53,663 nt of DNA, taken from positions 1-53,663 of the forward strand of contig VBAW01000027.1 in assembly GCA_005888635.1 (NCBI GenBank), read 5' to 3'. Positions 4,588 through 8,723 of this stretch are shown piece after piece (positions within the stretch are counted from its first letter, which is position 1; every line of letters starts with the position of its first letter). Under the pieces are notes generated by a model. That model searched no databases and had not been told where the DNA came from. It was given only the letters and a program-made list of their open reading frames with translations. The translations under genes and the position numbers were made by a program. Source of the stretch: Candidatus Bathyarchaeota archaeon. GTDB lineage: Archaea > Thermoproteota > Bathyarchaeia > 40CM-2-53-6.

Positions 4588-5508
4588 ATGCATGACGTAA
4601 TAATTATCGGTTCGGGGTCCGCGGGATATACTGCAGCCATCTACGCTTGCCGAGCTGGACGAAAGACGCTGGTCCTAGCAGGGTCGATTCCAGGTGGTCA
4701 ACTGATGATTACTTCAGACGTTGAGAATTTCCCCGGCTTTCCGGAGGGAGTGCTGGGCCCCGAACTGATGGAGAAGCTGCGGCGGCAGGCGGAGAAATTC
4801 GGACCGGAAATAATCTACGATGACGTATCATTCGTGGACTTTTCATCTAGGCCTTTCAAGGTAGTGGCTGGTGGGAAGTCGTACGAGGGGAAGAGCGTAA
4901 TCATCGCCACCGGCGCGAACGCCAAGTGGCTTGGGTTGCCCTCGGAGACCAAGTTTAGGGGAAGGGGAGTCTCCAGTTGCGCGACCTGTGATGGATTCTT
5001 CTTCAAAGGAAAAGACGTTGTGACAGTAGGCGGCGGTGACACTGCGATGGAGGAAGCGAACTTCTTGGCAAACATCACCAACAGCGTAACGGTCGTCCAC
5101 CGGAGGGACACGCTGCGAGCTAGCAAGATAATGCAGGAGAGAGCCACTGCTAACCCAAAGATCCATTTCGTCTGGGATTCAGCTGTCAAGGAAATTACTG
5201 GTGACGACAAGGTGACGGGGGTTCGATTGCACAATCTGAAGAGCGGAAAAGATAGCCATGTCAATGCTGATGGGGTTTTCATAGCGATAGGCTATGAACC
5301 GAACACGGGGTTCCTGAAGGGCAAGGTTGACCTCGACTCTCAAGGATACGTTGTGACCAGAAAGGATACCGAGACTAATGTTCCGGGAGTCTTCGCAGCG
5401 GGTGATGTTCGAGACCACAAGTACAGGCAAGCAGTCACAGCTGCAGCGGATGGATGCATGGCCGCTATCGATGCAGACCGGTTCCTAGCCGAACACTACA
5501 AGGCTTAG
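4588..5508 (+). CDS. trxB: Thioredoxin reductase (FAD, NAD(P)H)
   Basis: Flavoprotein that passes electrons from NAD(P)H through FAD to a redox-active disulfide and on to thioredoxin-like proteins. The 306-residue chain has the FAD dinucleotide motif GSGSAGYTAA (residues 8-17), the active CATC centre (Cys131-Cys134, in SSCATCDG), the nucleotide motif GGGDTAMEEA near residue 152, and the C-terminal FAD motif FAAGDVRD near 272. Length and order match low-molecular-weight TrxB. No thioredoxin gene lies beside it; a small zinc-ribbon gene follows after 15 bases and is probably co-transcribed. Confidence 0.97.
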   Translation: MHDVIIIGSGSAGYTAAIYACRAGRKTLVLAGSIPGGQLMITSDVENFPGFPEGVLGPELMEKLRRQAEKFGPEIIYDDVSFVDFSSRPFKVVAGGKSYEGKSVIIATGANAKWLGLPSETKFRGRGVSSCATCDGFFFKGKDVVTVGGGDTAMEEANFLANITNSVTVVHRRDTLRASKIMQERATANPKIHFVWDSAVKEITGDDKVTGVRLHNLKSGKDSHVNADGVFIAIGYEPNTGFLKGKVDLDSQGYVVTRKDTETNVPGVFAAGDVRDHKYRQAVTAAADGCMAAIDADRFLAEHYKA

Positions 5509-5523
5509 AGTCGTTGTGACCAC

Positions 5524-5727
5524 TTGAAGTGCACGAAATGCGACTTGCAACTTGACTTCGTAGGCCGATACATTGTACGAGAAGACTTTGAAGCCGGAGC
5601 TCCTGCGCAGATCCGTGACATGGAAGTTTGGCAGTGCGATGTTTGCAAGACTTACTATGAGGCGAGTATGAGCGGTAAGCCCGTTCCGATAAGATTCATG
5701 CAGAGCCTCTTCAAACGACTAGAGTGA
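5524..5727 (+). CDS. Small zinc-ribbon protein (two CxxC)
   Basis: 67 residues with Cys3-x2-Cys6 and Cys38-x2-Cys41, the pattern of a zinc ribbon with a 31-residue spacer, followed by a basic tail. I know no named family for it. The start is TTG at 5524, 15 bases after trxB on the same strand, so co-transcription is likely and a thiol-linked role is possible. Its last 9 bases overlap the 3' end of the convergent coiled-coil gene. Confidence 0.72.
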   Translation: MKCTKCDLQLDFVGRYIVREDFEAGAPAQIRDMEVWQCDVCKTYYEASMSGKPVPIRFMQSLFKRLE

Positions 5728-6966
5728 GATTCCCTCTAGTTCTACTTCCTTTCCAACATATTCTCGAGTTTTCATCTCGGCCTGTTTCAAGAGCTCTACC
5801 AGCCGCTTATTCACCGCATCTGTCATCGAGGCAGCAGACTTCATCTTCTCCTGAAGCTCTAGTTCTTCTCTCCTAGTCTCTTCAATCTTCGACAGCAACC
5901 CCTTCCGTCGATCGTACATATCCTTGCATTCCGCAATCCGCAGAAGCTCTCGTCTCCGCGCCAGTAATCGTCTCCCCTTCTCTTGTTTCTCCGCCAAATG
6001 GGTCGTCCCGATCAATTGGTTCAACTGAACCGAGACTCTACCAGTTTTTTTCGGCTTGAACTCCATCTTGCCGGAATCAATCGCCTTCTTCATGCTTTCC
6101 AGTATCCTTGCCAAGTATTCTCCTGTCGATTTGGAAAGGAAGCTCTTGTAAGGAGATTTGACGAATCCGGACAGGGCTTCTCGCTCATCTGAGCCCAGCG
6201 GATACTCGCCACGCTGAGATAGATCTGCGAGCCTTCGAAGGGGTCTCTGTAGATGGGCCAGGGTCTCGGCACGAAAGGCGCGACTCTCTTTACGTAGCTC
6301 TTTCTCGATGTCTAAGACTTCTCGAAGGTTAGCGTTTGCCTCTAACTGGTCAACCTTAGAGGTCAGATCTGATTCGGAACGACCCAGTCCCTCTATGTCT
6401 CTCTTCACTCCGCCTAGTTCCCGGGCCTTCTCCTCGAGTTCATTTCTAGCTATCTTGATGCTCTCAACAATTCCTGTCATCGTTCTTGCCCTTTGGAGTT
6501 TTGAGCCCTCGCCTTCCAGAAATGAGGCGAGCCTTTCGCCGCTCTTTGCTATCCGATCTAGGGTTCCGCCGAATGATCGCATGTCAAGAATGTAAAAACC
6601 GGAAAGTTCTCGCGCGGTAGAGTCTCGCAGGTCCCGAATCGACCTGCTCGCTACTGAAACACCGTCCTTGACGATTTTTAAGGACTCCCAGCTAGTCTCC
6701 GATGGAATTACGATATCCCCGACCCGCGCTGCTGCTTCGTGGGCTCCATGTGCGATTACTCGTGCTGCCCTGTAGGACGCGGCGTCCTTTTTCGTCGCCA
6801 TGTCCCTGTCGCCTTTCTTGGCCAAATCCTCATAGAAACTCTGTGCTTCGCTAACGGCTCGCTTCGCTTCGTCGACGAGTTTGGCGGCTTTGGATCTGGT
6901 AGATCGTAGTTGGCCGTCTAATTGGTTAGAAATCCAGGGCCCGTATTCTTCAATCGTCAGTCTCAA
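5719..6966 (-). CDS. Cytosolic coiled-coil protein, unknown function
   Basis: 415 residues with no signal peptide or membrane segment. It is dominated by charged heptad-like stretches: about 20-60 (EAKRAVSEAQSFYEDLAKK), 150-260 (KIARNELEEKARELGGVKRD) and 340-410 (KIEETRREELELQEKMKSA). The middle holds a less repetitive basic part around 270-320. I do not recognise a named domain. It lies 20 bases downstream of a membrane-anchored surface protein whose C-terminal half is also coiled coil, so the two are probably one transcription unit and may form a membrane-to-cytosol scaffold. This pairing is the main clue to function and is inference. Confidence 0.8.
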   Translation of the reverse strand: MRLTIEEYGPWISNQLDGQLRSTRSKAAKLVDEAKRAVSEAQSFYEDLAKKGDRDMATKKDAASYRAARVIAHGAHEAAARVGDIVIPSETSWESLKIVKDGVSVASRSIRDLRDSTARELSGFYILDMRSFGGTLDRIAKSGERLASFLEGEGSKLQRARTMTGIVESIKIARNELEEKARELGGVKRDIEGLGRSESDLTSKVDQLEANANLREVLDIEKELRKESRAFRAETLAHLQRPLRRLADLSQRGEYPLGSDEREALSGFVKSPYKSFLSKSTGEYLARILESMKKAIDSGKMEFKPKKTGRVSVQLNQLIGTTHLAEKQEKGRRLLARRRELLRIAECKDMYDRRKGLLSKIEETRREELELQEKMKSAASMTDAVNKRLVELLKQAEMKTREYVGKEVELEGISL

Positions 6967-6986
6967 TTTGAGTTAACCGGAGGAGT

Positions 6987-8723
6987 CTACCTGATCTCCT
7001 CTCGTAGGTTAATGATTACCGTGTCTATAGTCTGCTCCGCCTTTTGTTTGCGACGTATAAGATCTGCATTCAATGATTCATAGAGATCCCTAGAGATCTT
7101 GCCGCTACGATTCTGGTTTCTTAGATCTGCAGAGGTCGTCTTGATGACGTTAAGTTCCACTTCAGCCCGTTCAATCCGCTTTATCATGTCTGAATAGCGT
7201 CCTTGGGCCGTGGCCAATTGTTCTTCGACTGGTGCCAATGACCGGTCGATCTCAGTCATCCGACGATCCAACATCCGCCTCCGCTGTTTGTAATCATACC
7301 TGTTCAACGCGCCCCTAGCGAGGTCTTCCTCCATCTTGTCAGATTCGAGCCGCATAGACGATTTCTCGTCATACAGGTCCACGAACTTTGTGATCAGTTG
7401 TGATGGCGCGCCCGTTATCGCGCCCTCAGCACCGGGTCTACTCAAAACAGCCAAGGCACCTGCAGCCAAGGCACCTTCCACGAGGCCGACCCAGGTGAGT
7501 GGGCTTAGACTCGACCAGAAGGGATCAAGTTGGTACGTCATAGAGAAGCCTAGACTACTGACCGGAGTGACGGGTGAAGCTAGGAGAGAGATCTGGTTGC
7601 CAGAAATCTGAGGCACCTGCCCCGTAAGCGAGTTCAGTCTGAAACCTGACGGGGTGACAATCTTTGTCTGAAGCGAGGGGGCGTAGAACTGTACATTGTT
7701 AAACAGAGCAAAGTTCACTGTGAAGGTTCCCAGAGAACTAGTCGAAATGTAGGCGCTGGGGGACAGCGTATAGAATATCTTAGCCCTGAACGACTGGTTA
7801 AAGGGCACAGAGCCGAAGCTAGGCGTAAACGTAACCGTGCTTGTGCCGTCCGAATTCACCGTAGGCGTGGGAGTCGTTTCAGGTTGGTCAATTTCGAGTC
7901 CGAGAACATAGTTCTCAGTGATGCTCGATACGCCCTTCGGCACTTTGAACGCAAGCGAGGAGAGAGTTGGACCCAAATTCGTAACATTATAACTGTCAGT
8001 GACTTGCAAGGCACCTGTCGGAAAGATCTGGATTAGTCTTCCCGCTGACACCGTGAGAACATTCTGAGTCGCTGACGAGGCGAAGGTAACTTTCCATACG
8101 CTCGAGTTGCCAAAGTTGAGCGGACTCGATCCAGGACAATTATCAGAGCCAGTACTAGGCAGCGTGCAGGTGAAGGTTCCACCAGTAATTGTCTGGTTTA
8201 GAGGGAGTGGAATCTTGGGAGACTGCCAGTCGCCAGTCTGGAGGGTTACTTTTGCTCTAGTAACGTTGTAACTGCCGTCGACGAGCGGGAATGGGTTAGC
8301 TTCGAATGTGAAGCTGTTCGAACCAAGGCTGTACGATAGAAGCTCAGCAAAAACCGTGGTCACGTTGAAAACGAACTTTGTCTCACTTGCTGGAAATTGA
8401 ACGTTGAGAGTGGTGTAGTTTTGGCTCGGTGTCGGGCTTTGCTTGGAGACTTGGAGGTTGGCACCCTGAGCTGTCGCTGAGGTGAACCGCAGATCCTCGC
8501 TCACACTTGCTGGGATGCCGATCGTCATATGGGTAACGGGAACGGTACTTGTCAGATTGACGTAGTCGTTAAGGGTGGTGACGCCCCAGGCGTTAGTTGA
8601 GATGGTTCGTTCGAATGATGCGGAGCAAGTTGTGGGTTGGCAGTCTGTTGCCGCAGTAGCAGGGTGAGGGAGGAAAACGACGGTTAAGGCGAGTAGCAAA
8701 AGTACAGCGAAGAGTGCTCTCAT
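6987..8723 (-). CDS. Secreted-domain, single-pass membrane protein with cytosolic coiled coil
   Basis: 578 residues. A Sec signal peptide covers residues 1-25 (RALFAVLLLLALTVVFL, cleavage near ATA-A). Residues 30-405 are Ser/Thr/Asn-rich with many N-x-S/T sites and beta-type sequence, as in archaeal surface proteins. A membrane segment follows at about 410-430 (WVGLVEGALAAGALAVL). Residues 440-578 are a charged cytosolic coiled coil (KMEEDLARGALNRYDYKQRR). Topology is therefore outside-in with a long intracellular helix. No known family is obvious. The adjacent downstream gene is a soluble coiled-coil protein, a likely partner. Cell-envelope organisation or signalling is possible but unproven. 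Confidence 0.8.
   Translation of the reverse strand: MRALFAVLLLLALTVVFLPHPATAATDCQPTTCSASFERTISTNAWGVTTLNDYVNLTSTVPVTHMTIGIPASVSEDLRFTSATAQGANLQVSKQSPTPSQNYTTLNVQFPASETKFVFNVTTVFAELLSYSLGSNSFTFEANPFPLVDGSYNVTRAKVTLQTGDWQSPKIPLPLNQTITGGTFTCTLPSTGSDNCPGSSPLNFGNSSVWKVTFASSATQNVLTVSAGRLIQIFPTGALQVTDSYNVTNLGPTLSSLAFKVPKGVSSITENYVLGLEIDQPETTPTPTVNSDGTSTVTFTPSFGSVPFNQSFRAKIFYTLSPSAYISTSSLGTFTVNFALFNNVQFYAPSLQTKIVTPSGFRLNSLTGQVPQISGNQISLLASPVTPVSSLGFSMTYQLDPFWSSLSPLTWVGLVEGALAAGALAVLSRPGAEGAITGAPSQLITKFVDLYDEKSSMRLESDKMEEDLARGALNRYDYKQRRRMLDRRMTEIDRSLAPVEEQLATAQGRYSDMIKRIERAEVELNVIKTTSADLRNQNRSGKISRDLYESLNADLIRRKQKAEQTIDTVIINLREEIR

Follow-up and report, generated by a model that had tools for sequence, protein, structure and literature searches.

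An archaeal homologue of OST1 (ribophorin I) and a neighbouring all-helical protein in Bathyarchaeia

The window analysed here is the whole of a 53,663-nucleotide stretch of contig VBAW01000027.1 (GenBank assembly GCA_005888635.1), assigned to a Candidatus Bathyarchaeota archaeon (GTDB lineage Archaea; Thermoproteota; Bathyarchaeia; 40CM-2-53-6), and our subject is a pair of genes at 5719–8723. The first encodes an archaeal homologue of OST1 (ribophorin I), a subunit of the oligosaccharyltransferase (OST), the complex that links sugars to proteins and contributes to ribosome docking at the membrane, an identification that we regard as practically certain; the second encodes a soluble, all-helical protein, hereafter the partner, belonging to a Thermoproteota family without a name in the libraries searched. 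We propose, with a probability of about 0.7 for the reading as a whole, that OST1 keeps the glycosylation enzyme near ribosomes and that the co-encoded partner, a cytosolic adaptor, acts at the same site. The formerly unnamed membrane protein is a known OST subunit of eukaryotic type, here in a lineage that does not belong to the Asgards, and the partner gene could reveal the role of archaeal OST1 on the cytosolic side. A first-pass annotation of the window had already placed two genes here, 20 bases apart, which the open reading frames (ORFs) bear out (8723..6987 and 6966..5719, both on the minus strand).

The membrane protein

Scanned as a single sequence, the window's OST1 gave nothing over cut-off in Pfam or NCBIfam, and to this extent the annotation's remark that neither protein could be recognised was sound; the membrane protein was nevertheless named once its relatives were used. 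When all sequences in PDB were searched with a profile built from 21 members of the class, human OST1 was matched at E 1.1e-24, the alignment of profile positions 244–542 to chain residues 276–590 spanning the membrane helix and the cytosolic part. The same profile matched the ‘Ribophorin 1’ domain of the Asgard archaeon MK-D1 (8whn; E 2.9e-20) and yeast OST1 (E 8.4e-13). When the 21 members were scanned singly, 16 of them matched Pfam Ribophorin_I at E ≤ 1, the best at 1.1e-15.

The topology and the modelled fold are those of OST1. Hydropathy windows above 1.6 begin only at residues 1–8 and at 409, in keeping with the signal peptide and the one membrane helix described in the annotation. An AlphaFold2 model built on 19 sequences (mean predicted local distance difference test score, pLDDT, 78.6) has beta-rich outer domains and, in the 137-residue cytosolic part, four helices (441–469, 475–506, 508–539 and 545–577). 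What had been taken for a cytosolic coiled coil of 140 residues is thus modelled as four helices matching a solved four-helix bundle. Foldseek ranks 1–8 are all OST complexes holding OST1 (E 1.9e-25 to 2.0e-17), with whole-length template modelling scores (TM) by query of at most 0.48, and rank 11 is 8whn (E 1.3e-5), with a TM by target of 0.89 and a root-mean-square deviation (rmsd) of 1.9 over 142 columns at 25% identity. The outer domain had also been called rich in Asn-glycosylation sites, a description that does not hold: residues 25–405 contain 8 sequons against a shuffle mean of 6.3, with 8 or more in 577 of 2000 shuffles, and since composition accounts for this number it is unremarkable.

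Like eukaryotic ribophorin I/OST1 (PDB 6s7o, 8b6l and 6c26), the protein combines a signal peptide, outer beta domains and one membrane helix, and it shares the cytosolic helical bundle of the human protein, to which both profile and fold matches lead. Identity to eukaryotic OST1 is no higher than 14% in the eight best fold alignments, and the eukaryotic protein lies in the endoplasmic reticulum, whereas the window's OST1 lies in the archaeal cell membrane. The OST1 of Prometheoarchaeum syntrophicum MK-D1, from which 8whn derives, resembles it in the cytosolic four-helix bundle, but comes from another archaeal lineage; the OST1 of the window, from Bathyarchaeia, has in addition a soluble partner gene downstream. 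According to the paper describing 8whn (PMC11417166), the cytosolic part of the Asgard protein forms a bundle of four helices and can pull down human ribosomes, and OST1 occurs in eukaryotes and in TACK and Asgard archaea; a passage of PMC10307638 records that Ost1 and Ost3 had been reported earlier for Asgards. As TACK OST1 is already in print, the present protein is a well-supported added case rather than a new kind.

Two other readings of the membrane protein were considered and rejected on the OST1 evidence. The annotation saw in the pair a link from surface to cytoskeleton or from receptor to scaffold, that is, a surface receptor or adhesin joined to a cytoskeletal or scaffold protein. 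The topology alone speaks for such a receptor, but the OST1 identity accounts for the membrane protein over its whole length, which makes this reading extremely improbable. The annotation itself had named a confident match of either protein to a known unrelated family, or homologues that are mostly unpaired, as counting against its proposal; what was found is a confident OST1 match for the membrane protein and, as described below, homologues that are unpaired outside the window's own family.

The second reading ties the OST1 cytosolic bundle to CdvA, a division protein of archaea, and would place the pair in cell division. It draws on a Pfam CdvA-like coiled-coil domain matched by 8 of the 21 OST1 members at E ≤ 1 (best 7.5e-5), on the CdvA chain 9s9g reached by the OST1 profile in PDB at E 0.11, and on many short matches between the cytosolic part of the profile and frames of approximately 250–290 residues, which are probably CdvA proteins. 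In those scans, however, Ribophorin I scores far higher, matches of the CdvA type are confined to the helical part, and the modelled bundle already matches the 8whn structure. In CdvA, a PRC-barrel domain precedes the coiled coil; the window's OST1 has no PRC match at E ≤ 1 in Pfam, and its outer domains match OST1 instead. A connection with CdvA is accordingly as improbable as the receptor. Coiled-coil proteins drew numerous chance matches in the library and PDB scans, none of which was used as evidence.

Besides OST1, the OST subunits sought were STT3 and OST3/6. STT3 is present in the source genome (PF02516, E 2.3e-41, over cut-off), and OST1 very likely works with it. The window's OST1 was matched in 51 of 61 genomes of the class. 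Its profile matches 161 of 300 phylum genomes, many of the weak matches being short coiled-coil frames; this raw count is not taken as OST1, because frames of approximately 250–290 residues resemble CdvA-type coiled coils. Among the matches listed, at least 101 genomes have one at E 1.3e-17 or better, of which 100 cover no fewer than 300 positions of the profile and 71 begin in the outer part and continue to the cytosolic end. In relatives within the order, a gene for a hexapeptide-repeat transferase and/or a PRC-barrel plus zinc-ribbon gene often stands ahead of OST1 (loci L022, L023, L024, L025, L027 and L062), two of these preceding genes being confirmed by Pfam.

Conservation of the gene pair and its proposed role

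The window's own family was sampled with 21 genomes (G000–G020). OST1 is present in 20 of them, and in 18 of these 20, the source genome among them, the partner gene directly follows it on the same strand, a degree of adjacency that places the pair far beyond chance. In G019, the two genes lie at the ends of separate contigs, and neither was found in G008. Frames are damaged in a few of the pair genomes (OST1 is in two pieces in G009 and internally duplicated in G002). A named comparison set of 20 loci was also examined, comprising 14 labelled Candidatus Bathyarchaeota, five ‘archaeon’ or Crenarchaeota and one ‘bacterium’; depth labels in several of the record names suggest a soil origin. Both genes are found in 17 of these loci, and the gap between them is 19–26 bases in the 15 with full-length frames, even as OST1 identity across the conserved-gap loci falls to 45%. 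The two genes may share one transcript.

Additional copies were also seen. The metagenome-assembled genome of archaeon 13_1_40CM_2_52_13 carries two OST1–partner pairs on two contigs (L101 and L119; OST1 identity 88% and 90%). A second, strongly diverged soluble gene lies on a contig other than that of OST1 in 8 of the 21 genomes of the window's family (L055, L057–L060, L099, L100 and L183–L185).

Outside the family, the soluble gene was detected in 46 genomes. Both genes could be placed in 29 of these, 23 coming from the phylum-profile and class searches and six from searches with the window's proteins; the other 17 comprise five without an OST1 match and twelve in which OST1 was not searched for. 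In two genomes, G159 and G171, the genes are 9–10 kb apart on one strand. The conserved two-gene unit suggested in the annotation is therefore real within one family and does not extend to the 29 genomes outside it. Likewise, its description as an undescribed two-part system fits the soluble half, which has no family name, but not the membrane half, which is the known OST1.

In the mechanism that we propose, the beta-rich outer domains of OST1 would sit outside the cell beside the catalytic STT3/AglB, the single helix would cross the membrane, and the cytosolic four-helix bundle would face the ribosome, so that OST1 would most likely hold the glycosylation enzyme by translating ribosomes and the Sec channel. 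The partner, with its helical bundle, its long hairpin of coiled coil and the small domain at the tip, would be an adaptor in the cytosol, most likely working at the ribosome–translocon site in a manner resembling that of CDK5RAP3; it is proposed at this site because it is co-encoded with OST1 in its own family. The OST1 half of this scheme rests on knowledge of the family, the profile, STT3, the model and the fold match. By analogy with the Asgard protein and human ribosomes, the bundle probably contacts ribosomes. For the partner acting on the OST1 complex, as gene order in one family and a resemblance in shape would suggest, we see an even chance.

Several observations weigh against this scheme. 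Contact with the ribosome or with STT3 is, in this lineage, a prediction. The window's OST1 on its own stays below Pfam Ribophorin_I even at E 1, and its full-length superposition onto human OST1 is loose (TM 0.48, rmsd 19.5). A single OST3/6-type match was obtained in the source genome (31.9 bits against a cut-off of 27, in a 135-residue frame), and the same model also matches in 5 of 14 control genomes. Within the family, G020 (80% complete) has OST1, followed downstream by a convergent ORF, and the soluble gene was not found in it. Finally, in none of the 29 genomes outside the family are OST1 and the soluble gene 5 kb apart or less. As the pairing was not seen in these 29 genomes, the neighbours outside the family differ and no partner gene was found in G020, a function shared by OST1 and the partner is not general.

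The soluble partner: family, neighbours and possible likeness to CDK5RAP3

The AlphaFold2 model of the partner, built on 18 sequences, is all helical with short strands at both ends, and is confident almost throughout (mean pLDDT 90.7; 408 of 415 residues at 70 or above). The highest hydropathy window is 0.78, which indicates that there is no membrane helix and agrees with the annotation's soluble second protein. Judging from the helix order, residues 154–234 and 345–404 would pair as a coiled-coil hairpin. Among 13 partner sequences, P272, G282 and L324 are invariant columns, all within the tip domain.

Homologues of the partner occur in 65 of 151 class genomes at E 1e-6, and in 26 of 250 phylum genomes, three of them outside the class. 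A search begun from one of the members outside the class detected homologues in 108 of 121 genomes of another archaeal family, labelled f25, membership being supported by profile at E 3.0e-16 and 2.2e-15 for two genomes. Family members scanned singly had nothing listed over the curated cut-off in Pfam or NCBIfam; the alignment scans covered the best 25 of 87 and the best 25 of 171 families.

The neighbours of the gene outside its own family are recurrent. By motif search, 9 of 20 contexts have a PPP-type metallophosphatase next to the soluble gene, one case being confirmed by Pfam; in L142, the two genes lie in a cluster with C1-pathway genes, namely a methenyl-tetrahydromethanopterin cyclohydrolase and an FwdA-like amidohydrolase, and at other loci such a setting was judged by eye. 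In f25, a JAMM-type gene stands directly downstream of the soluble homologue in all 30 best-matching loci (two confirmed by Pfam as Prok-JAB, the remaining 28 by similarity). The two genes are separated by -4 to 39 bases in 27 loci and by 283–287 in three. The f25 homologue belongs to the same protein family as the partner, at approximately 13–17% alignment identity, but has Prok-JAB rather than OST1 as its neighbour. A literature search found no publication on this family with its JAMM-type neighbour.

These contexts bear on whether the two genes merely form an operon of convenience specific to this lineage, the partner's function being tied to the phosphatase or the JAMM-type protease and unrelated to glycosylation or OST1. 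The separation of the genes in the 29 outside genomes, the phosphatase and JAMM-type neighbours and the second, diverged copy away from OST1 would all fit such an arrangement, whereas a random neighbour would usually show less conservation of order and gap than the 15 loci retain down to 45% OST1 identity. We treat it as a serious possibility, held at clearly less than even odds.

The best fold match of the partner is to CDK5RAP3 (C53), the subunit through which the UFM1 ligase binds ribosomes. Foldseek ranks 1 and 2 in PDB, both nearly full length, are 8ohd_B (E 1.7e-3, probability 1.00) and 8qfc_C (E 6.7e-3, probability 0.99), which are CDK5RAP3 chains from UFM1-ligase/60S structures; being the same protein, they count as one piece of evidence. 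As outlined in PMC10937380, CDK5RAP3 consists of an N-terminal domain binding UFM1 and UFBP1 (residues 15–116), a long stretch of coiled coil and a domain that binds ribosomes, and the modelled partner appears to follow this three-part plan, its bundle, coiled coil and tip being arranged in that sequence. The partner could be a true CDK5RAP3 homologue without the disordered insert, descended from an archaeal factor that acted on membrane ribosomes before UFM1, its gene lying behind that of ribophorin I in one Bathyarchaeia family and next to one for a JAMM-type protease in a different family of archaea. The JAMM-type gene in the 30 f25 loci would be in line with such a descent, which we consider tentative and, on balance, doubtful.

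The structural comparisons cut both ways. Every Foldseek E-value of the partner model is above 1e-3, TM to CDK5RAP3 is 0.24, and unrelated coiled coils reach a probability of 0.98. VIA aligned 279 residues of 8qfc_C end to end over model residues 1–411, the longest of 50 rows, yet it stands at rank 38 with a Z of 8.5, a value that a common arrangement of helices can also give, and these best 50 rows do not include 8ohd. The top of the VIA list is occupied by pectin methylesterase/invertase inhibitors (Z up to 12.8), which were set aside as matching only the N-terminal bundle, again a common helical arrangement.

In sequence, human CDK5RAP3 searched with phmmer against 812 archaeal proteins (70 of them from the family) placed family members at ranks 1–4 and 11 of the best 25 (best E 0.081), members which are not independent of one another; BLAST on the same set gave no family enrichment (9 of 103 rows, the first at row five). 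Weak local matches run co-linearly from human residues 75–120 to partner residues 109–154, from 450–492 to about 360–402 and, with profile A7, from 491–505 to 400–414. Twelve block profiles compared with human CDK5RAP3 gave 5 co-linear matches, 6 elsewhere and 1 nowhere. In 3000 shuffles, the scores of the two C-terminal blocks were equalled 0 and 22 times and that of the 60–152 block 113 times; only the two C-terminal blocks fall under 1%, and shuffling destroys heptads. A likeness of the partner's last 13 residues to the human end, noticed by eye, is given little weight because most members do not share it.

Dedicated profiles did not single out the family. Pfam CDK5RAP3 (PF05600) was over cut-off in none of the 151 class genomes; the best of 29 listed sub-threshold places (17.7 bits) is in the partner family and the other 28 are outside it, and PF05600 was not listed for ten family members scanned singly, including the one with 17.7 bits in the whole-genome search. 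CDK5RAP3 was absent among the PDB hits of three family profiles (the best 60 of 87, 32 of 32 and the best 60 of 139), and hhalign gave family profiles a probability of 0.1–0.6% against the human protein. With the first family profile, 104 of 742 unrelated archaeal proteins scored at least as high as CDK5RAP3 (37 without bias correction), and with the second 27 or 24 did. Shuffled human CDK5RAP3 reached the real score in 433 or 21 of 5000 cases for the first profile and in 16 or 0 of 5000 for the second. An f25-only profile does worse, its score being reached by 1999 of 5000 shuffles and by 264 or 126 other proteins. As the sequence tests do not establish homology, filing the partner as CDK5RAP3 was rejected.

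The wider UFM1 machinery offers little more. Passages of PMC10183829 describe the disordered insert of C53, absent from the partner, as carrying shuffled ATG8-binding motifs, and report C53 only from eukaryotes, with UFL1 and DDRGK1 known from Asgard archaea, perhaps in a UFM1-independent role. UFL1 was over the Pfam cut-off in 1 of 121 class genomes and DDRGK in 1 of 101, neither being found in the source genome. Both passes are the same frame, G351:C25 near 5399–6105 (L188, with its neighbours; 25.3 and 29.2 bits).

If the CDK5RAP3 relationship were true, a factor of this type would have served ribosomes bound to the membrane at the Sec/OST site, with UFM1 joining only later, the missing third subunit beside UFL1 and DDRGK1 would have an archaeal origin, and the neighbours OST1, phosphatase and JAMM-type protease would make the original role testable. 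Even were the partner unrelated to C53, a family this frequent in f25, with a JAMM-type gene next to it in the 30 loci examined, would matter. The OST1 half of the pair is ordinary, being a known subunit; it is the soluble half that holds the interest, since this helical family is widespread, has telling neighbours and may be linked to the ribosome machinery of UFM1.

Coordinates and other observations

Features of the window and the two kinds of context outside the family are collected in table 1; the cleavage point of the OST1 signal peptide is an estimate from hydropathy and the model.

Table 1. Positions of the OST1 and partner features in the window, and of related loci elsewhere.
Feature	Position	Strand	Basis
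OST1/ribophorin I homologue, 578 aa, ATG start	6987..8723	-	ORF; profile of relatives; fold match
OST1 signal peptide, about residues 1–24	8652..8723	-	hydropathy windows starting at 1–8; model helix 2–16
OST1 outer beta-rich domains, residues 25–405	7509..8651	-	model beta strands; yeast OST1 matches profile 1–369
OST1 single membrane helix, residues 408–427	7443..7502	-	hydropathy window 409; model helix 408–427
OST1 cytosolic four-helix bundle, residues 441–577	6993..7403	-	four model helices; Foldseek to 8whn
Intergenic gap OST1/partner, 20 bases	6967..6986	-	ORF coordinates; 19–26 bases in 15 named loci
Soluble all-helical partner, 415 aa, TTG start	5719..6966	-	ORF; AlphaFold2 mean pLDDT 90.7
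Partner N-terminal helical bundle, residues 5–151	6514..6954	-	model
Partner outgoing coiled-coil helices, residues 154–234	6265..6507	-	model; probable pairing with 345–404 from helix order
Partner small helical tip domain, residues 240–343	5938..6249	-	model; contains P272, G282, L324
Partner returning coiled-coil helix, residues 345–404, then short terminal strand	5755..5934	-	model
Phosphatase contexts, other Bathyarchaeia, examples	L142:7427-9620, L152:8636-10853, L154:6838-9024		
f25 homologue + JAMM-type loci	L205:7814-9527, L206:8402-10093, L207-L236		

The source assembly is 2.18 Mb in size and 92% complete. The final nine bases of the partner ORF overlap tail to tail with a plus-strand ORF of 67 residues (5524..5727). 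Elsewhere in the window, 827–2963 holds two divergent DUF72 genes, the second with a DUF5789/DUF2795-like C-terminus.

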